Shown one piece after another: positions 3,284 through 18,929 of a stretch of DNA of 32,390 nt. The notes beneath the pieces were generated by a model, which was given only the letters and a program-made list of their open reading frames with translations, had not been told where the DNA came from and searched no databases. A program made the position numbers and the translations under genes. Source of the DNA: Vicinamibacteria bacterium (lineage in GTDB: Bacteria > Acidobacteriota > Vicinamibacteria > Fen-336); the NCBI GenBank assembly GCA_023701125.1, contig JAMPXO010000003.1, forward strand, positions 1 through 32,390. The letters run 5' to 3'. Numbering within the stretch: the stretch's first letter is position 1; each line of letters opens with the position of its first letter.

Positions 3284-4357
3284 CTAGGCCTCGAACGGAG
3301 GCAGGCCGCCGGCGTTGCGGGGGCGGGCCAGTTCGTCGCCGCGGCGAGCCGGGCGGTACTGCGCGAGCGCGCGGGACAGGTCGCGCGCCACTTCCCTGCG
3401 CAGGTCCTCCGGCTCGAGCACCTCGGCCTCGGAGCCGAACTGCATCAGCCAGCGCCGCACGCCGCTGGTCTCGGCGACCCTCATGCGCAGGATCACGTCG
3501 CCGTCGGCCTGCACCTCGACCCGCGCCGTGCGGTGCCACTTGCGCTCGCGAATCCAGCGGCCCTGGCGCGCCGCGAAGCGGATCGCCACCTCGCGCGGCG
3601 CGCCGCCTCGCATCATCCCGAAGGCGCCCGACATGAAGCGCTCGTAGCTGAAGTCGCCCGGGACCTCGTACGCCTCGTCGGTCAGCTCGGCGCTCAGGCA
3701 GCGGTGCAGGGCGAACAGGCGCACGTCCTCGTGGTTCGGGTCGTGGGCCGCGACGTACCAGTCGCCGCGGTGGTTGGCGACGTGGTAAGGCGCCAGGTTG
3801 CGCGAGGCGGTGCGGTTTGCGTTCAGGCTGCGGTAGCGGACGCGCACCCGCCGCCGCTGTTGCCAGGCCCGCAACAGCGTCCGGAACACGTCGGCGTCGG
3901 GCGTGTGCAGCGCGCCGGCGTCGAAGCTGAGGTAGTCCTGGACCAGCTCGGGCGAGACCGGGACCAGGTGCGGGAGCAGCTCCTGGATCTTGCGGAACGC
4001 GCTCTCGAGGTCGGGCTCGAACGGCGTGCCGCGGTACTGGGCGAGGACCTTCTCGGCGAAGTAGAGGGCGATCAGCTCGCCCTCGCTGAGGGTCACGGTC
4101 GGCAGCGCGCCGATCGGCCCGGTCAGGGCGTAGGTGCGCTCGCGCGGGTCGAAGTCGACCGGCACCCGCCACTCGTCGCGCAGGAAGTCGAGGTCGCGGT
4201 AGGCCGTGCGGACGCTGACCTCGAACTTGCGGGCCAGCGCCGTCGCGGTCAGCGGCCGCGATGCGCGCAGTTCCTCGATCGCCCACAGCAGTCGCCGCAG
4301 CGCGGGACGCGTCACCTGGACGGCTCGTCGTGAGGAGCGTCGTGTCTCTCGTGCCAT
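3284..4357 (-). CDS. WYL-domain transcriptional regulator (YafY-like)
   Basis: A 357-residue DNA-binding regulator. Residues about 17-75 form a winged helix-turn-helix (LTATALARKFEVSVRTAYRD, then a DFLRDE turn). The central WYL domain includes NLAPYHVANHRGDWYVAAHD with a WYV core (about 190-203). A WCX-like C-terminal segment runs from about 255 to 335. WYL domains sense nucleic acids or small ligands. PafBC and DriD, which share this architecture, respond to DNA damage by binding single-stranded DNA (established knowledge). A strong palindrome lies 50 bp upstream of the ATG, and similar ones precede two other genes in this window, so autoregulation and a small regulon are likely (inference). 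The 18 residues before the HTH are basic and poorly conserved-looking. Confidence 0.88.
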   Translation of the reverse strand: MARETRRSSRRAVQVTRPALRRLLWAIEELRASRPLTATALARKFEVSVRTAYRDLDFLRDEWRVPVDFDPRERTYALTGPIGALPTVTLSEGELIALYFAEKVLAQYRGTPFEPDLESAFRKIQELLPHLVPVSPELVQDYLSFDAGALHTPDADVFRTLLRAWQQRRRVRVRYRSLNANRTASRNLAPYHVANHRGDWYVAAHDPNHEDVRLFALHRCLSAELTDEAYEVPGDFSYERFMSGAFGMMRGGAPREVAIRFAARQGRWIRERKWHRTARVEVQADGDVILRMRVAETSGVRRWLMQFGSEAEVLEPEDLRREVARDLSRALAQYRPARRGDELARPRNAGGLPPFEA

Positions 4358-4400
4358 GCCGGGGGCATTGTCACCTACTCGATGGGGTCGGCCGTGGCCC

Positions 4401-4434
4401 GCAGCACCCTGACATCCGTTGTCAGGGGTGCTGC
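4401..4434. promoter_or_regulatory. 34-bp hairpin/palindrome containing WYL-type operator site A
   Basis: Left arm GCAGCACCCTGACA (4401-4414), spacer TCCGT, right arm TGTCAGGGGTGCTGC (4420-4434). The arms are complementary over 14 bp with one extra G. The inner core CTGACATCCGTTGTCAG (4409-4425) matches two other sites in the window. It lies 16 bp beyond the lipoprotein stop and about 50 bp upstream of the WYL regulator start. It could be an operator, a terminator-like hairpin (there is no T tract in either direction), or both. Confidence 0.65.
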
Positions 4435-4450
4435 GGTAAAGGAACGGCGC

Positions 4451-5014
4451 TCAGTCGGTCGCGGGGCCCGGCGCCACGACCAGTCGGAACCCGGCCCCGT
4501 CCGGCACCATCGCCAGCAGGCCCGGGAAGACCTGCACGTCGGTGAGCCGCGAGATCTCGGCGCTGTGGGCGTTGCCGCGATCGTCGGTGAAGCTGAACGT
4601 CATGCGGAAGAAGTCGAATGTGGTGGAGTTGAAGTCGAAGTTGGCGCTGAAGCTGGTCGTCTGCGAGGCGCGAATCACGTTGCTGCCCAGGCCCTGCTCG
4701 ATCTGCACGGCCCCGAGTTCCGCGCGCTCGATCTCCGACGCGCCGCGGTAGAGCTGGAGGCGCACGAAGTTCATCCGCGCGCCGAGCCCGGCGCTCTCGA
4801 CGACGCGGAACGGGACCCGCAACCGGAAGACGTGGAGCGGCGAGGGCGAGATGCCGAGCAGCGCGGTGCCGTTCTGGCTGACCGTGAGGCTCGAACGTGC
4901 GGGCAGCGTCGGCGTGGGCGTGGAGGGCGCCGACGGGCTGCCTCCCCCGCCGCAGGCCGCAGCCAGGATGCCGGAGATGAGCAGGATCGCGCGGTTGAGG
5001 CCGAGTCGTCGCAC
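4451..5014 (-). CDS. Small surface lipoprotein of unknown function
   Basis: A 187-residue predicted lipoprotein. A short basic N-terminus (VRRLGLNR) and a hydrophobic stretch lead to the lipobox LAAAC. A flexible Gly/Ser/Pro/Thr linker (SPSAPSTPTPTLPA) follows. The rest is a beta-rich domain (SSLTVSQNGTALLGI, then VPFRVVESAGLGARM, NFVRLQLYRG and FRMTFSFTDDRG) that looks immunoglobulin-like. I recognise no family. The GTG start at 5014 is chosen because AAGGAGG precedes it by 5 nt and the signal peptide then has normal length. An upstream in-frame start at 5053 would add 13 residues and lacks this support. A palindromic site (5071-5091) lies 57 bp upstream, matching the one before the WYL gene, so the lipoprotein is probably a target of that regulator. 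Confidence 0.75.
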   Translation of the reverse strand: MRRLGLNRAILLISGILAAACGGGGSPSAPSTPTPTLPARSSLTVSQNGTALLGISPSPLHVFRLRVPFRVVESAGLGARMNFVRLQLYRGASEIERAELGAVQIEQGLGSNVIRASQTTSFSANFDFNSTTFDFFRMTFSFTDDRGNAHSAEISRLTDVQVFPGLLAMVPDGAGFRLVVAPGPATD

Positions 5015-5070
5015 AGTGTCCTCCTTGAGGGTTCGCAAGGTGCGAACTGCCACGGAGGATGAGCGGCGGC

Positions 5071-5091
5071 CCCTGACAACCGGCGTCAGGG
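5071..5091. promoter_or_regulatory. WYL-type operator site B, upstream of the lipoprotein gene
   Basis: The core CTGACAACCGGCGTCAG (5073-5089) is a palindrome with GTCAGGG/CCCTGAC arms (perfect over 7 bp) and a 7-nt centre. On the minus strand it reads TTGTCAGGG, then 9 nt, then CATCCT (5061-5056), a -10-like hexamer. The gene starts at 5014. It is close in sequence and position to sites A and C. Confidence 0.6.
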
Positions 5092-5119
5092 AGTCGCGGG
5101 TTTCTGCGAACGATGACGG

Positions 5120-6970
5120 CTATGACGCGGGCGCGGGCGGGAGCGAGGCCGTGAGGTGGCGCTTCCCTCCCGTGGCCGGCAGGTCGAACGGCGCGATGCT
5201 CCTGGCCCCTGCGTCCCAGGCGTACCAGAGGAGTTCGGGAGACTCGAGCGGCAAGGCGAATCGGAACAGCACGCGCAGCGGGCGTCCGTCGGGAGTCACG
5301 GTGGCCACGGTGATCAGGACGCCATCGAGCGACACCGCGTCGCCCGGCGATCGACGGCTGCCGTCCTGGAACACCCCGTCCAGGAAAGAAAGCAGATAGG
5401 CCGTGTGAACCGCGGGCGGCTCGGCGAGGCCCTGGGGGGCCACGGCCCCCGCCGGGGCCACGAAGCCGCCCTGCACCTCGACCGCGAGCGTGTGTCCGTC
5501 GAGCCGCTCCAGTTCCGTCGTACCGATGCTCGACGACAGCACGAGCATCCGGTCCGGGATCGGGCGTCCCTCGAAGCGGCCGGCGATCAACATGCCCTGG
5601 ATCGACTGAAACGCCGACGGCGTGTTGACGAGCAGCAGCCACTGCCCGGGCCGTTCGGGTCCCGACGGTAGCGCGCCGGCGATCCGGTGCGAGAGAGCCG
5701 CGAAGTCCTGCACGCCCTGCGTCGCGCCCAGCCGCTGCACCGGCGCCAGCACGAGGTGGAAGAAGACCGCGGCGATCGTGGCGAAGCGCGCCGCGCGTCG
5801 CCAGGCGGCCGAGGCCGGAACCCACTCGGCCCGCGCCCGCCAGCCGCTCAGGAACTGCGCGAGCAGGCCCGCCGCGCCGAAGCCCGCGAGCGTCAGCAGG
5901 CGGTTGTTGGGCAGCGTGCCCGTGGCGGGCACGAGGCACAACACCATGCCGAGCGCGAAGAACCGCGCCAGCGCATCGCGGCGCAGGAGCGGCCAGATCA
6001 TGAAGCCGACGAAGCCGGCGGCCGCGAGCGCCACTCCCCACAGCCCGCGGGCTGCCGCGGGAGCGAACACGCCGTGGATCTCGGCGGGCAAGGCGACCAG
6101 GCCCATCACCAACAGCGGCACGCGCTCGACCAGGGCTCGCGCGAAATCGGCGCCGGACCCCGGGTCCGTGTACAGGATCGAACCGTGTGCGCCGTGCCCG
6201 CCCGCGCGGTACACCAGCGCCCAGGCCAGCCCGATCAGCGCGCAGGGCAGGAGGCCGCGGAGCCGTGGCCGCCAGGGACCGCGCTCGAGGAACAGCGCGT
6301 GGGCCAGCAGGTAGCCGCCAGCGCCGGCGGCCATCTCGCCCGCGAGCAGGCCGAGCAGCAGGAACAGCGGCGCCAGCCAGGCCCCCGGTGCCCAGCCGCG
6401 TCGGCGCCACGCGTCGTGGGCCGCGACGGTCGCGATCGCGAAGAGGGTGGCGATCAGCGCGTTGCGGTTCGCGATCCACGACGCCGGCATGGCCCACGCG
6501 TCGTCGACCGCGAACAGCAGGCCGGCCAGCGCCGCGGCTCCGGCCCCCAGGGGCAGGGCGCGGAAGGTCCGGGCGGCGATGGCGACGCACGCGGCCAGCC
6601 ACAGCAGCGAGTGGGCGTGCATCAGCCAGGGGTGATCGGGCCACAGCCGGAAGTCGAGCGCGTGGGTCAGGCTGGAGAGAGGACGGAAGAACGCCAGCTT
6701 GAGATCGGGCGACGCCCACCACGGCAGCGCCCCCTGCTCCATTGCCCGCCGGTTGAACGCGGGGTCTCCGGTGAAGAACCCGAAGACGTCGGTGGGCGCG
6801 CGCTCCCACATCGGGTCGATCGCCGGCCGCATCAGGGCCAGGCGCATGAAGTAGTCGTCGAGCTGGAACCCGAGGCCGAGCGCCGGCAGCGATATCGCCA
6901 CCGCGAGCAGCGCCAGGCCCAGCGGCAGCCGGGGGTTTCGGGCGAGGCCCGAGAGCGCGTTCAAGTTCAT
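5120..6970 (-). CDS. Polytopic membrane protein, GT-C glycosyltransferase-like
   Basis: A 616-residue integral membrane protein with about ten to twelve hydrophobic segments in the first 430 residues and a soluble C-terminal domain of about 170 residues. After TM1 (LPLGLALLAVAISLPALGL) comes an acidic pair in an extracytoplasmic loop (FQLDDYF), then FFRPLSSLTHALDFRLW and a long hydrophobic run. This is the layout of GT-C enzymes (PMT/ArnT-like), which use polyprenyl-phosphate sugars; the acidic pair would be the catalytic site. The assignment is by architecture, not a clear family motif. The ATG at 6970 opens with MNLNALSGL. An in-frame ATG at 7006, preceded by GGGTGG, would add 12 residues and is a real alternative. 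It is divergent from the methyltransferase gene. Confidence 0.7.
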   Translation of the reverse strand: MNLNALSGLARNPRLPLGLALLAVAISLPALGLGFQLDDYFMRLALMRPAIDPMWERAPTDVFGFFTGDPAFNRRAMEQGALPWWASPDLKLAFFRPLSSLTHALDFRLWPDHPWLMHAHSLLWLAACVAIAARTFRALPLGAGAAALAGLLFAVDDAWAMPASWIANRNALIATLFAIATVAAHDAWRRRGWAPGAWLAPLFLLLGLLAGEMAAGAGGYLLAHALFLERGPWRPRLRGLLPCALIGLAWALVYRAGGHGAHGSILYTDPGSGADFARALVERVPLLVMGLVALPAEIHGVFAPAAARGLWGVALAAAGFVGFMIWPLLRRDALARFFALGMVLCLVPATGTLPNNRLLTLAGFGAAGLLAQFLSGWRARAEWVPASAAWRRAARFATIAAVFFHLVLAPVQRLGATQGVQDFAALSHRIAGALPSGPERPGQWLLLVNTPSAFQSIQGMLIAGRFEGRPIPDRMLVLSSSIGTTELERLDGHTLAVEVQGGFVAPAGAVAPQGLAEPPAVHTAYLLSFLDGVFQDGSRRSPGDAVSLDGVLITVATVTPDGRPLRVLFRFALPLESPELLWYAWDAGARSIAPFDLPATGGKRHLTASLPPAPAS

Positions 6971-7068
6971 GGGGGATGCCGCAGCATGCGACAGCCGCCC
7001 GCCCATCGTCCACCCGCCGGGGGCTTGGGGGCGGAGGAGCGTCCGTTCGCGACGTAGCCCCCATGGGA

Positions 7069-7095
7069 CCGGTGACGGGCTTTGCCCGGCACCGG
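7069..7095 (+). promoter_or_regulatory. Hairpin in the divergent regulatory region
   Basis: CCGGTGACGGGC (7069-7080), loop TTT, GCCCGGCACCGG (7084-7095): a 12-bp stem with one mismatch. It sits between the membrane-protein start (6970 or 7006) and the methyltransferase start (7116). There is no T tract after it, so a terminator is unlikely. It could be an operator or leader structure of the methyltransferase gene. Confidence 0.35.
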
Positions 7096-7115
7096 AACCC
7101 GATAGACCCGGTACC

Positions 7116-7739
7116 ATGCGGTCCGTGATGAACCTGGTCGAGGAGTTCGGCGCGATCGACATCTACCTGTTCGACCAGGCGCTCAAGGGCCGCTTCGCGC
7201 CCGGGATGCGGCTGCTCGACGCGGGCTGCGGGTCGGGCCGCAACATCGTGTTCTTCCTGCGCCAGGGCTTCGACGTGTGCGGCGTCGACGTGTGGCCCGA
7301 CGCGGTGGCCCAGAGCCGGGCGCTCGCGGCGCGCCTGGCGCCGTCGCTGCCGGCCTCGAACTTCCGGGTGGAGTCGATCGAAGCGTCGAGCTTCCCCGAG
7401 GCCGCGTTCGACGTCGTGATCTGCAGCGCCGTGCTGCACTTCGCGGAGAGCCCCGGGCACTTCCGGCGGATGGTCGACGGGGCCTGGCGCGTGCTGAAGC
7501 CGGGCGGCTTCTTCTTCGCACGGCTGGCGTCCTCGATCGGGCTCGAAGACCGCGTGCGGCCGATCGGCGACGGGCGTTTCCGCCTTCCCGACGGCACCGA
7601 CCGCTACCTGGTCGACGAGGCGGCCCTGGTGTCGTTGACCGCGGAGCTGGGCGGCCGGCTCGCGGAGCCGCTGAAGACGACGAACGTCCAGGGTCAGCGC
7701 GCGATGACCACCTGGTGCGTGACGAAGGGAATGAACTGA
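7116..7739 (+). CDS. Class I SAM-dependent methyltransferase
   Basis: A 207-residue methyltransferase. Motif I LLDAGCGSGRN (33-43) binds S-adenosylmethionine. Acidic motif II follows as GVDVW (56-60). The FDVVICSAVLHF segment (98-109) is motif IV, and RVLKPGGFFFARL (125-137) is the typical post-IV strand of the Methyltransf_11/25 group. The acceptor cannot be told from sequence. The start is ATG at 7116; a second ATG at 7128 (MNLVEEFG) is equally possible, since neither has a clear ribosome site. The stop overlaps the next ATG (TGATG), so translation is coupled to the DinB-like protein. Confidence 0.85.
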   Translation: MRSVMNLVEEFGAIDIYLFDQALKGRFAPGMRLLDAGCGSGRNIVFFLRQGFDVCGVDVWPDAVAQSRALAARLAPSLPASNFRVESIEASSFPEAAFDVVICSAVLHFAESPGHFRRMVDGAWRVLKPGGFFFARLASSIGLEDRVRPIGDGRFRLPDGTDRYLVDEAALVSLTAELGGRLAEPLKTTNVQGQRAMTTWCVTKGMN

Positions 7740-8272
7740 TGGCCGACGTCGATCGCATCCTGGCACTGCTGGCGCGGACGCGGCCGGCGCTGATCGCGGA
7801 AGCGCGCAGCCTCGCCGCTGAGGACTTCGGCCGCTCCCCCGCCCCGGGCCGCTGGAGCGCGGCTCACGTGCTCGACCACCTCGCAATCATGGAGGGCCGG
7901 CTGGCGCCCCACTTCCGAGCCATGGTCGAGGGCACGAAGCCGGGCACCGTGGGACTGTGGGATCGCGTGCGCTGCCTGCCGCCGAGCCTGGTGCTGTGGC
8001 GAGGCATCCGCATCCCCCACCCGAAGATCGTCGACCCGGCGAAGGAGCCCGGCTCGTGTGACGAGCTGGTCGCGAAGCTGACGTCGTCGCGCACCCAGCT
8101 CGTCACCCTGATCGAAGAAACACGCGGCCGCGACCTGGGCCAGCTGCGGCTCGTCCACGGCTTCCTGGGCGGCCTGAACCTCTACGGCTGGTGGGAGCTG
8201 ATCGCGCACCACGAGGAGCGCCACCGCCACCAGTTGATCGAGATCCGCCAGGCGCTCACCACCGCGCCCTGA
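7739..8272 (+). CDS. DinB-fold (DinB_2) protein
   Basis: A 177-residue four-helix-bundle protein of the DinB/YfiT superfamily, which contains metal-dependent thiol transferases and many uncharacterised members. Signatures are the N-terminal RWSAAHVLDHLAIME with His47, and the C-terminal IAHHEERHRHQLIEI with His158 and His162. Together these give the usual three-His metal site. Its ATG overlaps the methyltransferase stop by 1 nt, so the two form a translationally coupled pair. The closely related pairing of a methyltransferase with a detoxification-type DinB protein suggests small-molecule modification or stress (inference). It converges with the next gene, with 18 bp between the stops. Confidence 0.85.
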   Translation: MADVDRILALLARTRPALIAEARSLAAEDFGRSPAPGRWSAAHVLDHLAIMEGRLAPHFRAMVEGTKPGTVGLWDRVRCLPPSLVLWRGIRIPHPKIVDPAKEPGSCDELVAKLTSSRTQLVTLIEETRGRDLGQLRLVHGFLGGLNLYGWWELIAHHEERHRHQLIEIRQALTTAP

Positions 8273-8290
8273 GCCGACGAGTCGACGCGC

Positions 8291-8590
8291 TCAGCGCGAG
8301 CGCTTGGCGGGCTTCCGGGGCATGCGCTTCGCCGGCTCGCGGGTGATGCGGACGTCGTCCTCGGGCTCGCTGGTGTGGACCTGGAGCACCTCCTCGACGA
8401 CCGTCTTCGTCACCTTCGGGCGGCGGAGCATGAAGCTGTCCGCGACCGACTGCCCGACCATCACGGACACCGCTTCCAGAAACGTCATCACGCGCTTCCG
8501 GGCGGCCGCCGGCGACTCGGCGATCACCACGAACGGCAGGCTCACTTCGACTCGCACCGCCACGGCCACGGTCTGTCCCTTTTCGAACAC
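8291..8590 (-). CDS. Small hypothetical protein with basic C-terminal tail
   Basis: A 99-residue protein not assignable to a family. It has a beta-alpha start (VAVAVRVEVSLPFVVIAE), a helical middle (AAARKRVMTFLEAVSVMVGQ) and a very basic tail (PAKRMPRKPAKRSR) that may bind nucleic acid. The start is GTG at 8590, supported by GAGGAGG with a 4-nt spacer. It lies 68 bp downstream of addA on the same strand and could be the last gene of that operon. Codon choice looks like that of the neighbours. I regard it as real because of the ribosome site and its well-formed protein composition. Confidence 0.65.
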   Translation of the reverse strand: MFEKGQTVAVAVRVEVSLPFVVIAESPAAARKRVMTFLEAVSVMVGQSVADSFMLRRPKVTKTVVEEVLQVHTSEPEDDVRITREPAKRMPRKPAKRSR

Positions 8591-8658
8591 GGGCCCTCCT
8601 CGGGAATGCACGATTGTCGCGCCCAGCAGGGCCGCGCGGGGTCCGTTCGAGGCCCGCG

Positions 8659-11600
8659 TCAGGGCGCGATCGGGACCAGGCGGCCGCTCGCCAGCAGGCA
8701 CAGGCTGGCGCTCACGGGCTCGCCGGTGAGCGCCGCGAGCGCCCGGGCATAGATGCGGAGCTGCGGCCCGTGCACCTCGCGGGCGCGCGTCTCGTCGCTG
8801 AAGGCCGCCGTCTTGAAGTCGACCACTTTCCACGCGCCATCGCGACGCCAGGCGAGGTCGATCCGCCCGGTGACCAGCTGGCCGTCCAGCGGCACGGCGA
8901 ACGGCACCTCGCGGAACACGCGATCGGCGGCGCCGGCCTCCACGATCTCGGGCAGGTCGTGGGCCCGGGCGGCCAGCGTCGCGGCCGCCAGCACGCCTTC
9001 GTCGCCCGCAGCGAACCCGTACTCGGGGGCGAGGGCGCGAGCCATCGCGGCGAGGTCGGCGTCCCGCGGCAGCAGCAGGAGCGCGTGAGTCAGGCGCCCG
9101 AACTCGCCGCCGGTTCGTGCGGGCGCCTTCGGCACGTGCGCGTCGAGCAGCTCGACGCTCCGCTCGTCCACGACCTCCGTGGTCGCCGGGCGGACATCCT
9201 CCGCCGACGTCGGCGGTGCGCCGGCCGCTGTCGCCGCGAGCGCGGGCCGCCTCGGTTGGCGCGCCTTCCGGCGCCGCTCCCGCCGCTCTCGAGTCCACGC
9301 CTCTTCCGCGATCAGGCCCGCCCACGCCTCGACCTCGCTGCCCTCGATGGACGCGAGCCGAGGTGCCGCGCCTTCCACTCCGGTGGCGGGAGCGAGCGCG
9401 CGCGAATCGAACCACGTGATCTCGGCCTGGCCCGGCGTGCCGTCGTTGCGCCACGCCGCACTGCGCCCGCCCCATGGCGGCTGCTTCCCCTCCACGACGA
9501 AGCCCGCGAGCGCCTGATCCAGCCAGCCGTCCTCGCGATGGCCCGCGTAGCACGGGAGCACCAGGTGGTCGCGGGCGCGCGTCAGCGCGACGTAGAGCAG
9601 CCGCCGCTCCTGGGCCGCCTCCTGCTCCAGCTCCGCCGCCCGCGCCTCTTCCCAGCCCGCAGGCTTCAGGCTGCCGACCTTGAACCACGCCTCCCCCGTC
9701 GCGTGGCGGACGACGGCGTCGACGCGGTGGCTCTGCTTGTAGGTGAGGTCGGCGGCGATCACGATCGGGTACTCGAGGCCCTTGGCCTTGTGGACGGTGA
9801 CCACCTCGAGCTGGCGGCCGGCCTCCTGGCCCACGGGCGAGTCGCCCTCTTCGCTGCCGCCCTCGCGCTGGGTCTCCAGGAAGCGCACGACGGATCGCAG
9901 CGTCGCGGGGCCCGAGGCCTCGTAGGCTCGCGCGAGGTCCAGCACCTTCCACAGGTTGGCGACAGCCTGCGCGCCGCCGTGGCGGAGGCGGAACGCGGGC
10001 AGCGCGCGCGAGCGCTCGAACAGCATCGCGATCAGCTCGCTCGGTGCCACCATCCGCCGCTGGCGGTAGAGCGCCTGCAGCAGGCCCATCGCGGGCCCGA
10101 CCCGCTCGGCGCGGCCGGCGCCGTCGGGCACCGGGGCCAGCGGGTTCAACACACCGCCGCTGCCGACGTAGCGGAACAGGTCGTCGTCCGACAGCGCGAA
10201 GAACGGCGAGCGCAGCGCCGCGAACACGGCCAGGCGGTCGGCGGGGTTGTCGATCGCGCGCAGCACGGAGGTCAGCGCCTGGACCTCGTCGCGGGCGAAG
10301 TACTCCTTGCCGCCGACCAGCCGGTACGGGATCCCGCGCTCCGCGAACGCCTCCTCGAACGGGCCGATGAACTCCGGCGTCATCCGCCGCACGAGCAGGC
10401 CGATGTCGCCCGGCTGCGCGGGGCGCACCCCGTTGGCGCGATCGCGCAGGCTCCACGGCCGCACGCGGGTGATCTCGTCCACGAAGCCCGCGATCGTCGC
10501 GGCCAGCCGCGGCAGCACGTCGCCCACTCTCGGCTTGCCCTCGATCCCCTCGAGGCTGACGGGCAGCGCGATCGTGCGTGCGCCGTCGCGCGCGACCTCG
10601 TCGCGGAAGGGCATCAGCGGCCGCGGCTCCGGATCGCCCTCGTTCGAGAGGATATCCGTGAACTGCTCGTTCACGAACGCGACGATCGAGGGCACCGTGC
10701 GGAAGTTGGCGTCCAGGGCGAGCCTCAAGCCGCCGCAGGCCTCGATCCGTCGCCGCGCCTGCTCGTAGACCGCGATGTCGGCGCGGCGGAAGCGGTAGAT
10801 GCTCTGCTTGGGGTCGCCGACCACGAACAGCTTGCCCGGCGCGAGCCGCACCTGGCTCCAGTCGGACGCCGGCGGCGCCTCGGGGTCCTCGGCCAGGAAG
10901 AACGCGATCTGCGCCTGCAGCGGGTCCGTGTCCTGGAACTCGTCGATCAGGACGTAGTCGAAGCGGCGCTGGAAGTAGCGGCGCACGGGCAGCGACTGCG
11001 CGAGCACGTCGCGGGTGAGCAGCAGCAGGTCGGTGAAGTCGGCGACGGCGTGCTCGTGGCGGGCCTGGTCGAAGGTGGCGAGGAAGCCGCGCAGGCTCTC
11101 GCGTAGCGCCCAGGCGAGGTCGGCGTCCGACGCCGCGCGCCAGGTCTCGTGGGCCTCCTTCACCGCCTTCAGCTCGACCTTGACCTGGCCGCACGTCTCC
11201 TTCGGCTTCCAGTTCCCCTGCTGGCCCAGGTGGCCAATGACCTGCAGGCCGCGCAGCCACAACTCGAGACCGACGCCCTCCGACCGCGCCGCTCGCTCGT
11301 GGAACGCCTCCAGCCGCTCCAGGCTCTCGTAGGCCTTGTCCGCCGTGTCCAGGCAGCGCGACTTCAGTGGCCGCAGCACCTGGAGCGCCTGTGCGATGCG
11401 CTCGCGCAGGCTCTCGATCGCGAACGGAGCGCGCGGCTCGGGCCGAGCGGCGATGTCGCGCTCGGCCACCATACGCCAGGCGGCGGCGCGGACGCCCTCG
11501 AGGCCGACGTCGAATGCCAGCGTCCGCACGAACGTGGGATCTCCCGCGGTCATCCGCGCTTCCAGCCACCGCTCCCACACGTCCTCGCGCAGCCGTTCGC

Positions 11601-12003
11601 CCGCGATCTCCGCGGCCACCTGGAATTGCGGGTCGAGGCCGGCCTCGAACGGCCGCTCGCGCAGCAGTGCCGAGGCGAACGCGTGGATCGTGGAGATCGG
11701 CGCTCGCTCGAGGTCCGCCGCGGCCGCGGCGAGCCGCGTGCGTTCGCGCTCGTCGTGAGCCGACGCGACGGCCTCGTCGAGTCCCTCGCGCAGGCGAGTC
11801 TTCAGCTCGGCTGCGGCCTTCTCGGTGAACGTGATCGCGACGATCCGATCGATCGGCGCGCGGCCGGCCCGCACCAGCGCCAGGATGCGGCCGACGAGCA
11901 CGGTCGTCTTGCCCGTGCCTGCGCCGGCCTCGAGCAGGAACGTCGTGTCGAAGTCGTTCAGGATGCGGTCGCGGACGTCCTGGTCCGACGGCGGGCGGCT
12001 CAC
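8659..12003 (-). CDS. addA: AddA-type helicase-nuclease subunit
   Basis: A 1114-residue UvrD-family helicase with a C-terminal PD-(D/E)XK nuclease: the motor subunit of an AddAB complex that processes double-strand breaks for RecA. Helicase motifs in order are GAGTGKTT (about 28-35), ITFTEKAAAELKTR (Ia), LIDEFQDTDPLQ (II, about 350), VVGDPKQSIYRFRRADI (III), LDANFRT (IV), VTVHKAKGLEYPIVIA (V) and LLYVALTRARDHLVLP (VI). The nuclease shows GRIDLAW (about 1045) and VVDFKT (about 1060). The start is GTG at 12003 inside the addB stop (GTGA overlap), so the subunits are translationally coupled. The length is slightly below that of Bacillus AddA (about 1230). Family and role are confident. Confidence 0.93.
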   Translation of the reverse strand: MSRPPSDQDVRDRILNDFDTTFLLEAGAGTGKTTVLVGRILALVRAGRAPIDRIVAITFTEKAAAELKTRLREGLDEAVASAHDERERTRLAAAAADLERAPISTIHAFASALLRERPFEAGLDPQFQVAAEIAGERLREDVWERWLEARMTAGDPTFVRTLAFDVGLEGVRAAAWRMVAERDIAARPEPRAPFAIESLRERIAQALQVLRPLKSRCLDTADKAYESLERLEAFHERAARSEGVGLELWLRGLQVIGHLGQQGNWKPKETCGQVKVELKAVKEAHETWRAASDADLAWALRESLRGFLATFDQARHEHAVADFTDLLLLTRDVLAQSLPVRRYFQRRFDYVLIDEFQDTDPLQAQIAFFLAEDPEAPPASDWSQVRLAPGKLFVVGDPKQSIYRFRRADIAVYEQARRRIEACGGLRLALDANFRTVPSIVAFVNEQFTDILSNEGDPEPRPLMPFRDEVARDGARTIALPVSLEGIEGKPRVGDVLPRLAATIAGFVDEITRVRPWSLRDRANGVRPAQPGDIGLLVRRMTPEFIGPFEEAFAERGIPYRLVGGKEYFARDEVQALTSVLRAIDNPADRLAVFAALRSPFFALSDDDLFRYVGSGGVLNPLAPVPDGAGRAERVGPAMGLLQALYRQRRMVAPSELIAMLFERSRALPAFRLRHGGAQAVANLWKVLDLARAYEASGPATLRSVVRFLETQREGGSEEGDSPVGQEAGRQLEVVTVHKAKGLEYPIVIAADLTYKQSHRVDAVVRHATGEAWFKVGSLKPAGWEEARAAELEQEAAQERRLLYVALTRARDHLVLPCYAGHREDGWLDQALAGFVVEGKQPPWGGRSAAWRNDGTPGQAEITWFDSRALAPATGVEGAAPRLASIEGSEVEAWAGLIAEEAWTRERRERRRKARQPRRPALAATAAGAPPTSAEDVRPATTEVVDERSVELLDAHVPKAPARTGGEFGRLTHALLLLPRDADLAAMARALAPEYGFAAGDEGVLAAATLAARAHDLPEIVEAGAADRVFREVPFAVPLDGQLVTGRIDLAWRRDGAWKVVDFKTAAFSDETRAREVHGPQLRIYARALAALTGEPVSASLCLLASGRLVPIAP

Positions 12004-15000
12004 GGGATCTCCCGCAGCTTCAGGAAGGCCGCGACCCGCGGGTCATTGACCTTGCGCGCGGCGCGAGCCTCACGCCCCTCGCCGCAGACGAGCTGGAAGT
12101 CGCAGTACGTGCAGTTGTCGGCAACCGCCGGGAACACTCCCGACGCGGCCTGCGCGTCGAGGGTCGACAGCACCCACTGCAGCGTGTCGTCCTGCTCGGG
12201 CTCGGCGGGCAGCCCCTTGCGCTTGTAGCCGCCCTTCTCGGTCGAGTAGTAGTAGATCGCCTCGGCGACCGGACGGCCCGGGGCCAGTGCTCGCGCCGCG
12301 GCGTTGTAGACCGCGAGCTGCAGCTCGGTGCCGCCCTTCCACTGCTCGTCCTTCTTCCAGAAGTGGCCGCCCGTCTTGTAGTCCACGACCCGCACGCCGC
12401 GCCCCTTCTTCGCGGTGTCGAGGCGGTCGATCCTGCCGTGGAAGCGCACCGCGGCGCCGTCGCCGAGCGGGATCTCGACGCCCTCGAACTCGCGCTCGAA
12501 CTCGGCGGGCACGAACCCGTCCTCGGCGAGCGCCCGGGCCTCGTCGCGCAGCAGGCCCTCGACGTCGGCGCGCAGCCGCAGCCGCGCGGGGTCGAGCAGC
12601 GCCGGGTTGCGCACGCCGTTCTCCGCCGCGTATTGCGCCAGCTCTTCGTCGACCAGTTCCGCCACGCGCGAGGCCAGCCGCGGCACGTCGGCCGGTCGCG
12701 GCGGCAGCGCGCCCTTCTCGGCCAGGCCGGCGAACAGGCGGTGCACGATCTCGTGGAAGACCGAGCCGTAGTCGACCGGGAGCATCCGGTACTCGCGCGC
12801 GGGCTCCTCCCAGCGCCGGAGCCGCAGACCGGTCGCCAGGAAGTGCCGGTAGGGACACGCGGCGAGCGCCTGCACGCGCGTCGCCGAGGTGTCCTGATCC
12901 GCGAGGCGTAGTCGGGCGAGGGCCTCGGGCGTCGGCGCGTCGAGCGCGCCTTCCCACACCGTCCAGCGCGGTTCCCACGCCGCGGCTGCCTGCTCGAGCG
13001 CGCGCGAGACGAGCGTGTCCACGCCCGCGAGATGGCGGGCGGCGGCTCGCGCGCCGGCGCTGACCAGGGCGAGGTCGCGCTCGACGCGATCGATCGCGGT
13101 GGCCGGGCCGGAAGGATGCGGACGGCCCAGCTCGGTCTCGCCGGGGCGAGCGAAGGCCGCGAGCTGGGCTGCCGTGACCCGGCGCCCGAGCGCGGCCTCG
13201 ATCGCGTGCAACAGGAAGGAGGAGGGGATGCGCTCGCGACCGCCGGCGGTGTCGAAGCGCGGATAGGACAGGACCAGCCGCTCGCCCGCGCAGCGCACGG
13301 CAGCGAGGAAGAGCAGGCGCTCGGCTTCCATCCCGTCGCGCGTCGTACGCAGGTCGGGCGACAGTCGCTCGCGCTCGTCGTCGAGCAGCAGCGGATCGGG
13401 CCGCACCGGTGTCGGGAACGCGCGCTCGACGAGCCCGGGCACGAACACGGCGCGGAAGCGCATGCCACGGGCGGCGCTGATCGAGCCGACGAAGACGCGG
13501 CCCTCGCCGAACTCGCCCTCGCGGTACACCTGAGTGGCGAGCACCTCCTGCACGCGGGCAAGGAAGGCTGCCCGGCTCGCGTTCAGTGACGGCGCGTGGT
13601 CCGCCATCGGCCCCAGCACGCGCAGCAGGCGATCCCGCGTCAGCTCGCCGTCGACGATCCAGGTCTCGAGCAGGTCGAGGGTGACGGCCAGCATCTCGCG
13701 CCACGTGCCCAGCGAGGGCAGCCGCGCGAGATCGGAGGCCAGCCGCTCGATCAGGCGGCCGAGGCTCTCGTAGAGCTTCAGGTCCCGGTCCTCGGTGTAC
13801 TCGCGTTCGGCCCGCCGCTGGCTCGCCTGCCCGAGCCGCCGCCGCCAGTTGTCGAGGCCCGCGACGATCCCCGCCTCGGCCGACAGGCGGTCCCAGCGCG
13901 ACGGGCTGATCTCCGTCCCGGGCGCCAGCACGTTGTCGAAGTGCAGGCGAGCGCCGGTGACGAACTCCATCACCCGCGCCCGGTCGAGATCTGCGTCGAC
14001 GAGCCCGAGCAGCAGCGACAGCCCGCGCGCGGCGGGGTCGAGCCGCGGGCCGCCTTCGAGGAAGTACGCGTCGATTCCGCCGCGGTCGAACGCGGCCGCG
14101 AGCACGGGGCCGTACGCGGACGGCTGCCGCAGCAGCACCGCGATCTCGTCGAAAGCCACGCCTTCGACGGCCAGGGCCTGGATGGCCCGCGCGATCTCGA
14201 CCGCCTCCATGGACTCCCCGGCCGCCGCGAGCACCGTCAGGCTGGCGTCGAGTTCCCCGCCGCCGCTCGGAACGGTCCCCGGCGCGTCGGCGAACAGCCG
14301 CTCCTGGAGCCGCGCCAGCGCGGAACAAGCGTCTCCACCCTCGCCGGACGCGGCCACGGCCGGCGCGGTGAGTGCGTTCAGGAACGCACGCCGGGCGGCG
14401 TGGCGCGGCGCTCCCGCTGGCGGCAGGGGCGGCGCGATGCAGGCGAAGGGCTGGTGCCGGCTCAGCGCCTCGAAGAAGCGGCGCTCGGCGGCCGAAGGGT
14501 CCGCCAGGGCGCACAACACGACGCCACCGACGGTGGGCGCAGGCAGCGCCGCGGCTGCCGCCTGGAGCAGGTCCGCGCGATCGACGAGCCCGGCTTTATC
14601 CAGTCGAGCCGCATACCCGCGCGCCAGGCGGCCGAGCAAGCGCAGTCGCCCGGGATCGGCAGCCTCCGCCGCGGCGCCCTCCAGGGCGTCGGGCGTCACG
14701 CCCGCCCCAGCCAGATCCACGAGCGTCCGCAACACGGCCGGCGCGAACCCGGACGTCTCGGCCGCGTCGCGGAGGTACGAAGGCGTCCCACCGACCGCGA
14801 TCGCCCCGGGGATCGTCTCCAGCAGCAACGCCAGGTCGGCGTTCTCGGGCACCCGGGCCCGGCCGCCAGCGAGCAACGCGGGCATCGCGATCCGCCACGC
14901 CAACTCGTGCACCGCGACGAAGTCGATCCCCACGTGCCCGCGTTCGGCGAACACCTCGCGCGCGAGCCAGGTCCCGAGCAGCGGGCTCGGCACGACCACG

Positions 15001-15071
15001 CTCACGGGCCAGAGCCCATCCCCGGCCCGCACCTGGAGCACAGCGACTTCGACGGCCTCGCGGAGCTTCAT
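12000..15071 (-). CDS. addB: AddB-type nuclease subunit with [4Fe-4S] staple
   Basis: A 1023-residue partner of AddA. The N-terminal half has the UvrD-like fold but begins SVVVPSPLLGTWLAREV with no GxxGxGKT Walker A, so this subunit is probably not a motor. The C-terminal nuclease has GRIDRLD (about 880) and VVDYKTGG (about 897). The AddB-specific iron-sulfur cysteines are visible: one in LAACPYRHFLATG (about 737) and three in NCTYCDFQLVCG (about 985-995). The ATG at 15071 follows the stop of the secreted-protein gene by 28 bp, and its end overlaps addA by 4 nt. The likely transcript is therefore secreted protein-addB-addA, placing the repair genes under the palindrome at 15867-15887 (inference). 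Confidence 0.9.
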   Translation of the reverse strand: MKLREAVEVAVLQVRAGDGLWPVSVVVPSPLLGTWLAREVFAERGHVGIDFVAVHELAWRIAMPALLAGGRARVPENADLALLLETIPGAIAVGGTPSYLRDAAETSGFAPAVLRTLVDLAGAGVTPDALEGAAAEAADPGRLRLLGRLARGYAARLDKAGLVDRADLLQAAAAALPAPTVGGVVLCALADPSAAERRFFEALSRHQPFACIAPPLPPAGAPRHAARRAFLNALTAPAVAASGEGGDACSALARLQERLFADAPGTVPSGGGELDASLTVLAAAGESMEAVEIARAIQALAVEGVAFDEIAVLLRQPSAYGPVLAAAFDRGGIDAYFLEGGPRLDPAARGLSLLLGLVDADLDRARVMEFVTGARLHFDNVLAPGTEISPSRWDRLSAEAGIVAGLDNWRRRLGQASQRRAEREYTEDRDLKLYESLGRLIERLASDLARLPSLGTWREMLAVTLDLLETWIVDGELTRDRLLRVLGPMADHAPSLNASRAAFLARVQEVLATQVYREGEFGEGRVFVGSISAARGMRFRAVFVPGLVERAFPTPVRPDPLLLDDERERLSPDLRTTRDGMEAERLLFLAAVRCAGERLVLSYPRFDTAGGRERIPSSFLLHAIEAALGRRVTAAQLAAFARPGETELGRPHPSGPATAIDRVERDLALVSAGARAAARHLAGVDTLVSRALEQAAAAWEPRWTVWEGALDAPTPEALARLRLADQDTSATRVQALAACPYRHFLATGLRLRRWEEPAREYRMLPVDYGSVFHEIVHRLFAGLAEKGALPPRPADVPRLASRVAELVDEELAQYAAENGVRNPALLDPARLRLRADVEGLLRDEARALAEDGFVPAEFEREFEGVEIPLGDGAAVRFHGRIDRLDTAKKGRGVRVVDYKTGGHFWKKDEQWKGGTELQLAVYNAAARALAPGRPVAEAIYYYSTEKGGYKRKGLPAEPEQDDTLQWVLSTLDAQAASGVFPAVADNCTYCDFQLVCGEGREARAARKVNDPRVAAFLKLREIP

Positions 15072-15099
15072 CGCCTGCCGACTCTAACAGCGCCCCTGG

Positions 15100-15816
15100 T
15101 CAGCGCAGGCCCGGCAGGTCCTTGAAACGCTTGTTCTTGATCTTGAAGTCCTTCTCCTTGCTGCCCTCGCCGACGACCGTGACGAAGAACTCGTCGAGCC
15201 CCGGCGTCGCGATCAGGGCCTTCACCTGGTCGAGGTCGAAAGTCGCCATCAGGCCGTTGTAGTGGAGCTGCGCGCCGCCCGACGTCTGCGTCGACTCGGC
15301 GAAGGGCTCCATCGACAGCGGCTGCACGACCTGGCGCTTGGCCTCGTCGCGCACGACCACGTGCTCCACGGAGGAGGTCTGCGACTGATTCCGGAAGTCC
15401 GTGGCCTTGTCGGGATAGACCACGATGCGGAGGATCGGCCGCAGCATGTCGTCCGTGACGTCCTCGGGCCGGAACGGCTTGTAGACCTTGGCGGCGTCGC
15501 TGGCCTGCTGCTGCACCCACGTCAGCGGCGTGTACATCGCGAGCCGGAACCCGGTGCCCGCGGTCACGGCGGCAGGGCCGTTCAGGGAGGCCATCGCGTT
15601 CATGAACCCCCGCCCGGCATCGCTGATGCTGAGCGCCGCCGATCGTCCCTTGGCGATCCGCCCCTTCTCGATCGCGGCCGACACCTCCGCCTCGGAGTAC
15701 GAGATCCGCCGGATGTCGGACGGCACCGCCGACTCCCCGAGAACTGCGGGCGCCTCCTGCGCGATGCCCACGAACGCCCCGAGACCGAACACGACGCCGA
15801 ACCAGATCCCCTTCAT
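15100..15816 (-). CDS. Secreted protein of unknown function, first gene before addB-addA
   Basis: A 238-residue protein with a signal peptide (MKGIWFGVVFGLGAFVGIAQ). The mature part is soluble, with no recognised domain. Visible features are ISYSEAEVSAAIEKGRIAKG, an AMYTPLTWVQQQASDAAK segment, a beta-strand segment ILRIVVYPDKATDF, and a lysine-rich end (KEKDFKIKNKRFKD). The start at 15816 is chosen because GGGAGG precedes the ATG by 6-7 nt; an in-frame ATG 24 nt upstream lacks this and would weaken the signal peptide. A palindrome at 15867-15887, 51 bp upstream, matches those before the WYL regulator and the lipoprotein. The gene is thus a likely WYL target, and addB follows after 28 bp. Confidence 0.75.
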   Translation of the reverse strand: MKGIWFGVVFGLGAFVGIAQEAPAVLGESAVPSDIRRISYSEAEVSAAIEKGRIAKGRSAALSISDAGRGFMNAMASLNGPAAVTAGTGFRLAMYTPLTWVQQQASDAAKVYKPFRPEDVTDDMLRPILRIVVYPDKATDFRNQSQTSSVEHVVVRDEAKRQVVQPLSMEPFAESTQTSGGAQLHYNGLMATFDLDQVKALIATPGLDEFFVTVVGEGSKEKDFKIKNKRFKDLPGLR

Positions 15817-15866
15817 GCCGTTCCTCCCATGCCGATGCACGAACCACAGGCACGGTAGAACCCCAC

Positions 15867-15887
15867 CCCTGCCAACGAGTGTCAGGC
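15867..15887. promoter_or_regulatory. WYL-type operator site C, upstream of the secreted protein-addBA transcript
   Basis: CTGCCAACGAGTGTCAG (15869-15885) matches sites A and B at most arm positions, with one mismatch between arms. On the minus strand it reads TTGGCAGGG, then 9 nt, then TACCGT (15857-15852), a -10-like hexamer about 36 bp before the ATG at 15816. Position and sequence parallel site B. Confidence 0.5.
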
Positions 15888-15932: not shown

Positions 15933-16316
15933 TCACGTGTCGAGGGTCGAGTGCCAGTGCTCGACGACGTCCAGCCAGCCCTTGAGTTCCGCGGCCGTCG
16001 GGGGGAGTTCGTAGACGTGGTGGTGGCACGCGCGGGAGAGGGCGCTCCAGGCCGACGAGACGGCCGCTGCGCTTTCGGGTTCCGCGTACTCCGCGAGACA
16101 GATGAACTGGGCGCGCGCGCTGCACTGGTCGAGCGCAAGGCCGCGACTCTGCCAGTACTGGTCGAGCGACTCTTCCAGGGCCTGCCGGATCAGCAGCGCT
16201 GCGGCACGCGGCCAGGCCCCGGCTTCCGCCCCTCTTGCGGGGCGCGACATCAACTGCCGGGCTGCCGCGAGCAGGTCCGCGGGGCCCTGCTGCGCGCGAT
16301 CTTGCTCCCCGCTCAC
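15933..16316 (-). CDS. Small HEPN-like protein, partner of the zinc-hook ATPase
   Basis: A 127-residue, mostly helical protein. Helices include AAALLIRQALEESLDQYW (38-55) and ARAQFICLAEYA (68-79). They are followed by WSALSRACHHHVYELPPTAAEL (split here as 90-98 and 99-111), which contains Arg95-x4-His100, an RX4H motif of the kind used by HEPN ribonucleases. A C-terminal helix ends WLDVVEHWH. The GTG start at 16316 overlaps the ATPase stop (GTGA), so it is translated with it. HEPN assignment is by motif and helix layout only; it may instead be a non-catalytic DNA- or ATPase-binding partner. An internal ATG at 16250 (MSRPARG) would give a shorter form that keeps the motif. Confidence 0.68.
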   Translation of the reverse strand: MSGEQDRAQQGPADLLAAARQLMSRPARGAEAGAWPRAAALLIRQALEESLDQYWQSRGLALDQCSARAQFICLAEYAEPESAAAVSSAWSALSRACHHHVYELPPTAAELKGWLDVVEHWHSTLDT

Positions 16317-18850
16317 GCCTGCCCCGCGAGCCACTTCGCCAGCTTCTGCGAGGAGCCGATGCGATCCATCAGGTCGCCGCCCACCTCTTCGTGGGCGCCG
16401 CTGTTGCACCACTTGAAGACGTCCGCGAAGTCGCGCGAGGCCCGGTTGAGGTGCGGCAGGACCTCGCCCGCCTTCTCGGCGTCGTCGAAGAGCGCCAGCG
16501 CCACCAGCTTGCTCAACTTCGAGTTCGACTCCAGGAGAACCTGCACGTCGTCGTGGCGATCGCCGCGGCCGATGCGGCGCGCGCGCACCGCCTTCTGGCA
16601 GGCCGCTTCGAGCGCGTGGCGACACAGGCCCGGGACCACCCGCCGCGACGCCGCGGGCGGCAGGCCCTCCGTGCGGGCCAGCGCGCGCGCATCCGCGATC
16701 ACGCGGTCGATGGGGTCGGGGTTGGGCTGGACCTCGATCCGGGAGTTCTCCTGCCGGGTCACCGCGTAGATCGAGGCGTCGAGGTTGAGCCGGCGGACCG
16801 ACTCGGCCAGGCGGTCGTCGTGGGTGAAGACGATCACCTGCCGGTCGCGCGCCGTCTCGGCGAGGACGCGGGCGAGGCCGTCGACGCGGGCCGGGTCCAT
16901 CGACTGCACCGGGTCGTCGATGACCAGGAAGCGGAACGGGCTCTCCGGTTGCGTCGCCCGCGGCAGGAACAGGCTGAGGGCCAGGGCGTGGATCTCGCCC
17001 TGGCTCATCACGCCGAGGGCGACCGAGTCGGCGCCGTCGACCGCGACCTTGAGCTCGACCCGGCGCTTGGTCGCGCTGCCCTCGAGCACGACGTCCTTCA
17101 GCTCCACGTTGCTCTGCAGCCGCAACTGCGCCCAGATCGCGATCGCCCGCTGCGCGATCGGCGCGAAGCGCTCGCTGCGCAGCGCCTTGCCCTGCTCGCC
17201 GAGCCAGCCCTCCGCCGTCTCGATCGAAGCCAGCGGCGCGGCCGTCTCGCGGGCGCGGCGCGCCACGGGCAGCCACTCGAAGAGGCGCTGGGCCATCGGC
17301 CGCCAGGCATCCTCGGCCTGACTCAGGTGCGCGCTCGCGGCGGAGGACAGCGCCAGGAAGGCCTCACGCAACGGGCCTGCCGCCGACTCCAGCGCCTGCG
17401 CACAGGTCGAGAGCTGTCCGAGAGGGTCCGCACTCGCGCCCGGCTCCCCGAGCGCGAGCGCAGCGTTCCACTCCTCGAAGCGGGCCATCAGCGGCGCGAC
17501 GTCCAGGCCGAACTGCGACGCGCTGGCGAACGCCGCGACCGGCAGGCCGGCCAGCAGGCCCCGCGCGGTCGCCAGCGCTCGCCGGCCGGCATCCCGCGCC
17601 TCGGAGGCGCCCCGCGCGGCCTCGCGGAGGCCCGCCGCTTCCACGGCCTTCGCCCGATGCCACTCGGCGTCCAACGCGCCGTCGCGGCCACAGACCGGGC
17701 ACGGCCCGTCGCCCTGCGTTTCGTGGAAACGGAGCGCGCCGTCGAGCAACTCGGCGAGCGCCAGAGAGCGCGCCGCGAGAGTGCCTGCCGCGTTGCGCAG
17801 GCGCTCATCCGCGTCGCACAGCCCCGCCACGGCCGCGGCCACCGCTTCCGCCGAGGGCCCGCGAACCGCGGCCAGTTGGTGGAGAGCGGAGAGATCCGTC
17901 TGCAGTCGTGAGGCTGCGCTGCCCAGCAGGCTCTCGATTTCCTCGAGCCCCCAGCTCTCCCCTTCCAGCTCCACGCGCACGCGCGTCGCGCGCAGGTCGG
18001 GATGCCCCGCCAGCGCTTCCAGCAGCGCCTTGCGGCCCCGCTCGGCCTCGTCGAGCGCCTTGCGTCGGGCGAGGCGCTCCGTGGCCAACAGCTTCTGCGC
18101 TTCCGCCAACTCCTCCAGGCCGAGGATCTGGGCCAGACGGTCGTGCAGCTCCGAGGGGGCATCGAAGGTGGAGCCGAGTTCCGAGTAGGAGAGGAAGGGA
18201 CGCCAGGCCGCAAGGGCCGAACTCCAGCCGAGTTCCTCGAACGATTGGGCCTGCCGTCCGGGGCGCGTCACGCGCGTCTCGCCCTCGTCGGTCAGCCGCG
18301 CGCTGTCGGGGAAGGCGCGGCTCACCGTGAGGCCGGCCGCTTCGCCTTCGACCGCGAAGTCGGCGGCGATGCAGGCGCCCGTCCCCTGGTGCAGGTTGCG
18401 CCAGCCCTCACGCCAGACCGCGGTGCGCTGGACCCAGCGGAACGTGTTGCCCGTGAGCAGCAACTCGAGCGCCTCGGCGAAGCTGGACTTGCCGGAGCCG
18501 TTGCGGCCGACGATCAGCGTCAGGCCCGGGCCCGGGTTGAGGTCGAGCCGGGCCTCGGGCCCGATGCCACGAAAGCCGCGCACCCGGATCTGGCGAGCGA
18601 AGATGCCCGGCACCTCCGGCGGCTCGGGCGGAGGCGGCAGCGGCGCGCGCCCGCTGCCCGCTGCCGGCGTCTCGAGCATCTTCGCCAGTGTTTCCTTGCC
18701 CTCGAGCGCAGCGAGGACCAGGTAGTCCCATCCGCTCGGGCGCGGCGTCGCCGGGCGACCCTTCTTCCTGGGCGCGGCTGCGGCTTCGGCCGCGGCCTTC
18801 TCCTCGGCCTCGAGCTTCTCGATCACGATCCGCTGGAGCGCAGGGTCCAA
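16313..18850 (-). CDS. SMC/Rad50-like AAA ATPase with CxxC zinc hook
   Basis: An 845-residue ATPase of the RecF/Rad50 class. N-terminal features are an Ala/Glu-rich and Pro-rich leader, an IRVRGFRGIGPEARLDL strand and Walker A GRNGSGKSS (about 115). Long coiled-coil arms flank CPVCG (about 382), a Rad50-type zinc hook. The C-terminal half has the signature VMSQGEIHALALSLF (about 614), Walker B FLVIDDPVQSMD (about 640) and H-loop IVFTHDD (about 675). A helical tail from about 720 includes CRHALEAACQKAV and ends near KWCNSGAHEEV. The TTG start at 18850 has GAGGAGG 4 nt upstream; an ATG at 18871 adds 7 residues and has no ribosome site. It is translationally coupled to the HEPN-like gene. Candidate roles are phage defence or DNA-end surveillance (inference). 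Confidence 0.85.
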   Translation of the reverse strand: MDPALQRIVIEKLEAEEKAAAEAAAAPRKKGRPATPRPSGWDYLVLAALEGKETLAKMLETPAAGSGRAPLPPPPEPPEVPGIFARQIRVRGFRGIGPEARLDLNPGPGLTLIVGRNGSGKSSFAEALELLLTGNTFRWVQRTAVWREGWRNLHQGTGACIAADFAVEGEAAGLTVSRAFPDSARLTDEGETRVTRPGRQAQSFEELGWSSALAAWRPFLSYSELGSTFDAPSELHDRLAQILGLEELAEAQKLLATERLARRKALDEAERGRKALLEALAGHPDLRATRVRVELEGESWGLEEIESLLGSAASRLQTDLSALHQLAAVRGPSAEAVAAAVAGLCDADERLRNAAGTLAARSLALAELLDGALRFHETQGDGPCPVCGRDGALDAEWHRAKAVEAAGLREAARGASEARDAGRRALATARGLLAGLPVAAFASASQFGLDVAPLMARFEEWNAALALGEPGASADPLGQLSTCAQALESAAGPLREAFLALSSAASAHLSQAEDAWRPMAQRLFEWLPVARRARETAAPLASIETAEGWLGEQGKALRSERFAPIAQRAIAIWAQLRLQSNVELKDVVLEGSATKRRVELKVAVDGADSVALGVMSQGEIHALALSLFLPRATQPESPFRFLVIDDPVQSMDPARVDGLARVLAETARDRQVIVFTHDDRLAESVRRLNLDASIYAVTRQENSRIEVQPNPDPIDRVIADARALARTEGLPPAASRRVVPGLCRHALEAACQKAVRARRIGRGDRHDDVQVLLESNSKLSKLVALALFDDAEKAGEVLPHLNRASRDFADVFKWCNSGAHEEVGGDLMDRIGSSQKLAKWLAGQA

Positions 18851-18929
18851 GAGTCCTCCTCGGGTCGACATCAATTGGGCGACCGGCCGGATGGCCCGTT
18901 TCTACACCATCCCGCCACGTCGGGTCCGC

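Follow-up and report, generated by a model that had tools for sequence, protein, structure and literature searches.

Transcription factors with a WYL domain are, to our knowledge, among the commonest uncharacterised bacterial regulators, and we know of few with a known operator. The system closest to the one described here is DriD of Caulobacter crescentus, a WYL activator of an SOS-independent DNA damage response with nuclease and repair genes among its targets, which binds ATACGAC-N7-GTCGTAT over the -35 element at a constant distance to the -10 element (PMC12340889). In mycobacteria, sigma adaptation by PafBC involves contact with a -26 motif in place of -35 recognition (PMC11804915), with a heterodimer acting on the non-palindromic RecA-NDp site (PMC6789036), and SiwR of Mycobacterium smegmatis switches on neighbouring genes from an imperfect palindrome located between the -35 and -10 elements and depends on the -26 region (PMC10693628). 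The WYL family also includes the phage-defence repressors BrxR and CapW; BrxR recognises inverted repeats ahead of the gene that encodes it, 11-bp repeats with a 5-bp spacer (PMC9122601). In the literature on Acidobacteriota, we found no described WYL regulon. Here we describe a palindrome shared by a WYL regulator gene and its surroundings in a member of this phylum, and compare it with these systems.

Results

A rare palindrome upstream of three genes

The DNA that we analysed (the window) is a 32,390-nt stretch, positions 1 to 32,390 of the forward strand of contig JAMPXO010000003.1, from the 5.4-Mb genome of a soil-type acidobacterium, a Vicinamibacteria bacterium (GCA_023701125.1); named relatives of its WYL gene point to the same class. 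Three palindromes of the form CTGACA-N5-TGTCAG had been predicted in it, and all three were found where they had been placed: site A (CTGACATCCGTTGTCAG, 4409-4425), site B (CTGACGCCGGTTGTCAG on the minus strand, 5073-5089) and site C (CTGACACTCGTTGGCAG on the minus strand, 15869-15885), in which one half-site is mismatched (TGGCAG). All three precede minus-strand genes: A that of a WYL regulator (3284-4357), B that of a 187-aa putative lipoprotein (4451-5014; lipobox-like LAAAC in the translation) and C that of a secreted protein (15100-15816). The sites lie 51, 58 and 52 bp before the respective start codons, in each case one more than the 50, 57 and 51 bp given originally.

With at most one mismatch allowed, the window contains CTGACA-N5-TGTCAG 3 times, whereas dinucleotide shuffles, our null for the window, gave 0.07 ± 0.26 (0 of 100 reach 3). 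Loosened to three mismatches, the same motif falls to chance level (8 against 7.8 expected), so only the tight form is informative, and the claim rests there. Our genome scans, which were pattern-based, found the tight form in five places in the 5.4 Mb, three of them in the window, spanning 11.5 kb; the expectation that there would be no further intergenic copy was borne out, as the window scan finds none beyond A, B and C. Outside the window, the match on C154 is an AT-rich CTGACAATTTTTGTCAC. The match at C213, CTGTCATCCGTTGTCAG, was set aside: it lies between divergent genes of unknown function, and the -10-like hexamer described below is absent in both directions.

From these sequences and those of relatives, the predicted operator is better written as CTGAC-N7-GTCAG(GG), with the GAC-N7-GTC core of Caulobacter DriD. 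The core is shared by A, B and the sites of relatives, and C has one half-site base changed; the outer half-site differs, being CCCTGAC here and ATACGAC in DriD, as do the phylum and the target genes.

Conservation of the sites and co-occurrence with WYL genes

Comparison of orthologous upstream regions, called for in the original prediction, showed that the sites are kept upstream of the orthologues of the WYL, lipoprotein and secreted-protein genes. Sites A and B are retained before the WYL and lipoprotein genes in two congeners, and the order site-lipoprotein-WYL recurs in six genomes, including G094 and G095. The genes for the secreted protein and two nuclease subunits that follow site C (secreted-addB-addA, see below) are absent beside the WYL locus in congeners. 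In one of these, G012, a homologous operon lies on another contig and site C is kept, with the same changed half-site. Retention of the site although the operon is no longer beside the regulator argues strongly that the two are linked in trans.

In two genomes whose WYL protein is 57-58% identical, we found CTGAC-N7-GTCAG in front of the genes for the lipoprotein, WYL, ARPP-1 and a type II secretion ATPase, and of a small Cys-rich ORF; one of these sites has a single mismatch. Directly after the site-bearing Cys-rich ORF of G011 comes an AddB fragment, which suggests that addB was formerly linked to WYL there. This N-terminal fragment (L033:3739-3990) carries in-frame stops and adjoins the WYL cluster; a near-complete AddB is encoded on contig C178, and no convincing site was found within the 14 kb read around that intact copy.

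Across the class, the exact element (palindrome plus hexamer) is present in 6 of 193 genomes and a WYL orthologue in 8 of 193, with an overlap of 4 (p = 1.8e-5). A fifth genome, G132, carries the element near a truncated WYL gene (L141:5690-6238, matching query residues 201-339 only), where -10-like hexamers accompany the site in both directions. A perfect palindrome is located within ~1 kb of WYL at all eight orthologue loci, and in a distant family WYL loci can be recovered by searching with nothing but the motif. Upstream of WYL paralogues of 28-36% identity, a GAC-N7-GTC palindrome is mostly missing. G004 (contig C25, L085:4338-4354) is the exception: there, a perfect CCTGAC-N7-GTCAGG separates a distant WYL paralogue of 28% identity from a divergent gene, and TACGAT occupies the fixed offset on the strand of that gene. 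Many WYL activators may share this palindrome.

One further family of sites was considered and rejected as part of the regulon. Site D, before a small XRE-type HTH gene, is kept in three congeners (L093:1401-1417, L086:4471-4487 and L087:4832-4848); it overlaps the -10/+1 region of a TTGTCA-N16-GATACY promoter recognised by eye, lacks the hexamer, and may be the XRE-type protein's own operator.

A fixed distance between palindrome and -10-like hexamer

When the sites were aligned on the strand set by the direction of the target gene, all 13 gene-oriented sites, from 8 gene families and 6 genomes, had NANNNT at one and the same offset, with the hexamer starting 20 bp downstream of the palindrome centre (A at position 2, T at position 6); other offsets never occurred more than once. 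The G004 site lies between divergent genes and was oriented by its hexamer. When a 12-site set was shuffled 20,000 times, no offset was shared by more than 5 of 12. Positions 2 and 6 hold the most conserved bases of the sigma-70 -10 element, and their conservation here centres the palindrome at about -32, on the -35 element.

For sites B and C, the hexamers are CATCCT (5056-5061, minus strand; GATCCT in congeners) and TACCGT (15852-15857, minus strand; identical in G012), so that the predicted succession of palindrome and -10-like hexamer at a fixed distance on the minus strand held at both. A site in G095 that was found through its WYL gene obeys the rule as well, with GACGCT. The rule fails at site A (in three genomes and in either direction), at the upstream-most G010 site before WYL (L032:711, hexamer absent), at the G092 palindrome and at the XRE-gene sites. 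Site B is the only exact copy of palindrome plus hexamer in the genome; with at most one mismatch allowed, the whole-genome scan recovers A and C (one mismatch each) and no others, and reversed-pattern controls gave no matches genome-wide.

The original prediction had stressed equal placement of the three sites relative to their genes. At B and C, what stays constant is instead the distance to the hexamer, not that to the start codon, and A lacks this feature; because A breaks the rule in both directions and forms a hairpin just after the lipoprotein stop codon, the similar spacing to start codons is partly coincidence. The -10-like hexamers at the sites are weak, and a search of 4200-5300, covering A and B, recognised no sigma-70-type promoter. 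From their layout and the co-occurrence with WYL genes, B and C are probably WYL-activated promoters. An operator on the -35 element at constant spacing from a weak -10 element is the arrangement of DriD, a likeness that concerns the constancy rather than the base-exact distance and that excludes site A.

The WYL regulator

The product of 3284-4357 (357 aa) is a wHTH-WYL-WCX factor, with HTH_11 (5.2e-8), WYL (1.2e-17) and WCX (5.4e-19) all above Pfam cut-offs. It shares this architecture with DriD, and the nearest structural matches of its model, which is weak (pLDDT 63), were DriD and then PafBC. Arginines R50 and R54 of the recognition helix are invariant in an alignment of eight orthologues, and are spaced like R44/R48 of PafB (PMC6789036) and R38/R42 of SiwR (PMC10693628). 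In the aligned WYL loop, RxFALHR here stands against WRLDR in DriD (chains 7tzv/7u02).

PafB residues that matter for ssDNA binding were mapped by reading them from alignments. R181, Y196, R208 and R214 have retained counterparts, the R204 position is occupied by His or varies, and the counterpart of R211 is Ala216 in all eight orthologues. PafB loses ssDNA binding when R211 and its partner residue are both mutated, and the replacement of R211 makes ssDNA uncertain as an inducer. The locus holds one WYL gene, with neither a PafB-PafC pair nor a fusion, and the genome's only other match is on another contig.

The operon downstream of site C

The secreted-protein gene at 15816 is where it had been predicted, but it is not a lone gene: it is the first of an operon with addB-like (12000-15071) and addA-like (8659-12003, overlapping the addB stop) genes, both on the minus strand. 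This AddAB-like operon, which the original prediction had missed, is the most informative target. The secreted protein (238 aa) had no match in Pfam or NCBIfam. AddA combines a UvrD helicase (4e-54) with a PD-(D/E)XK nuclease domain (PDDEXK_1, 4e-11), and AddB carries a PD-(D/E)XK domain (PDDEXK_1, 8e-39), the composition expected of AddAB. Matches to the NCBIfam equivalogs addA_Gpos (5.7e-83) and addB_Gpos (1.2e-21) stay below the curated cut-offs, indicating a divergent set. The genome has a separate AddB-type gene on contig C82, a core paralogue such as most of the family carries, and by comparison the set in the window looks accessory.

An SMC/RecN-like ATPase gene (window 16313-18874, minus strand) stays near the WYL locus in a congener and partly matches broad defence ATPase models. 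We identified no defence system at the WYL locus, although broad helicase/ATPase matches were obtained for both AddA and the SMC-like protein.

Site A and its hairpin

Site A is the most perfect copy of the palindrome in the genome, and forms the core of a long hairpin (4399-4435, minus strand; fold z = -5.2) that begins ~16 nt past the lipoprotein stop codon. In two congeners its 14-bp arms are perfect; there is one compensatory change, and no T tract follows the hairpin. A -10-like GACAAT/GAAAAT is conserved just before the WYL start, and the centre of A is ~45 bp upstream of this hexamer, which would put it near -57. A conserved GTGACAAT/GTGAAAAT (window ~4358-4373, minus strand) lies ~15 nt before the WYL ATG, which suggests that the WYL transcript is near-leaderless.

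Judged by its position and fold, site A probably terminates or attenuates transcription between the lipoprotein gene and WYL, serves in autoregulation, or does both. The narrower proposal that A is no more than the lipoprotein gene's intrinsic terminator, containing the WYL-site sequence by coincidence, has a chance somewhat below even and would be compatible with activation at B and C. The fold, the conserved arms with their compensatory change and the lack of a -10 element at the rule's offset all speak for it; the missing T tract does not, nor does the CTGACA/TGTCAG core, which is the operator sequence itself and is kept in three genomes.

Discussion

The idea of a WYL regulon is strongly supported by the conserved sites, their co-occurrence with WYL genes and the retrieval of WYL loci by the motif, with the reservation that site A, one of its three proposed members, is unlike an activated promoter. 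These features, together with the fixed geometry, are properties of the sequences themselves, and on that footing we take the sites to mark a genuine WYL regulon, small and with a promoter code that can be read. We consider it quite likely that the WYL protein encoded next to them activates B and C as class-II-type promoters, in the manner of DriD and PafBC. In this model, for which we infer binding, activation and the inducer, a WYL dimer would bind CTGAC-N7-GTCAG through R50/R54 of the recognition helix, with the palindrome centred at ~-32 over the -35 region and a weak -10 element (NANNNT) starting 20 bp downstream of that centre. As a consensus -35 element is absent, sigma-70 RNA polymerase would fire only together with the activated WYL dimer. 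The targets would be the lipoprotein gene directly upstream of WYL (site B), and the operon of the secreted protein and a second AddAB-like nuclease (site C), to which relatives would add the ARPP-1 and type II secretion ATPase genes and the small Cys-rich ORF. The hairpin at A would be a separate element that may limit read-through into WYL or mediate autoregulation. The inducer would most likely be a nucleic acid, ssDNA from DNA damage, and DNA damage is a plausible signal.

Activation at B and C is the best reading given the comparison with DriD, PafBC and SiwR, the arginine pair and the structural matches. With DriD, the regulon further shares nuclease/repair genes among its targets. PafBC is likewise a WYL activator of DNA-repair genes, acting from a site at ~-26 at promoters with no usable -35 element; it differs in being a heterodimer on a non-palindromic site, whereas here there is one gene and a palindrome, and Ala replaces R211. 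SiwR differs in its site sequence, with GGA at -26, and in being reported to regulate adjacent dinB-like genes, whereas the regulon here also takes in an operon that is unlinked in a congener.

The same geometry could be put to other use. An operator over the -35 element fits repression too, and the WYL protein might block B and C until released by a ligand, much as BrxR represses via inverted repeats near its own promoter (PMC9122601); site A before the regulator's gene would then suggest autoregulation. We regard this as improbable, since a repressor does not need the constant single-base spacing to the -10 element that is nevertheless fixed in 13 of 13 sites, the activator DriD has been reported with the same geometry, and the -10-like hexamers are weak, with no sigma-70-type promoter recognised between 4200 and 5300. 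It is very improbable indeed that the palindrome belongs to LexA or another factor, with WYL a mere neighbour. Site C would control a DNA-repair operon, as a LexA box might, and similar palindromes are found near an XRE-type gene in three genomes, but an SOS box should precede many DNA-repair genes, including the gene of its own regulator and recA. We rejected it for an element that this genome has only at A, B and C. Across the 193 genomes, moreover, the exact element hardly occurs away from WYL loci and WYL-bearing genomes, and the WYL protein DriD has the same GAC-N7-GTC core.

A further objection to activation by the nearby WYL protein is that the unrelated G004 paralogue has the same palindrome, so a paralogue could be acting here. 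We also give a small chance to a variant in which an Acidobacteriota WYL family with DriD geometry, its R211 position fixed as Ala, responds to a ligand other than ssDNA, couples envelope lipoproteins to an accessory AddAB-like nuclease and uses its operator as a terminator-like hairpin, placed between the lipoprotein and regulator genes, to set the level of feedback.

With B and C as activated promoters, the regulon joins the DriD/PafBC/SiwR kind, and a GAC-N7-GTC palindrome on the -35 element is already known from DriD. Our data indicate that in Acidobacteriota a small regulon, with its operator and promoter geometry, is readable from sequence, and link an accessory AddAB-like nuclease to WYL control. 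The GAC-N7-GTC core on the -35 element, common to DriD and the distant G004 paralogue, suggests a general rule by which the operators and targets of WYL activators could be predicted.
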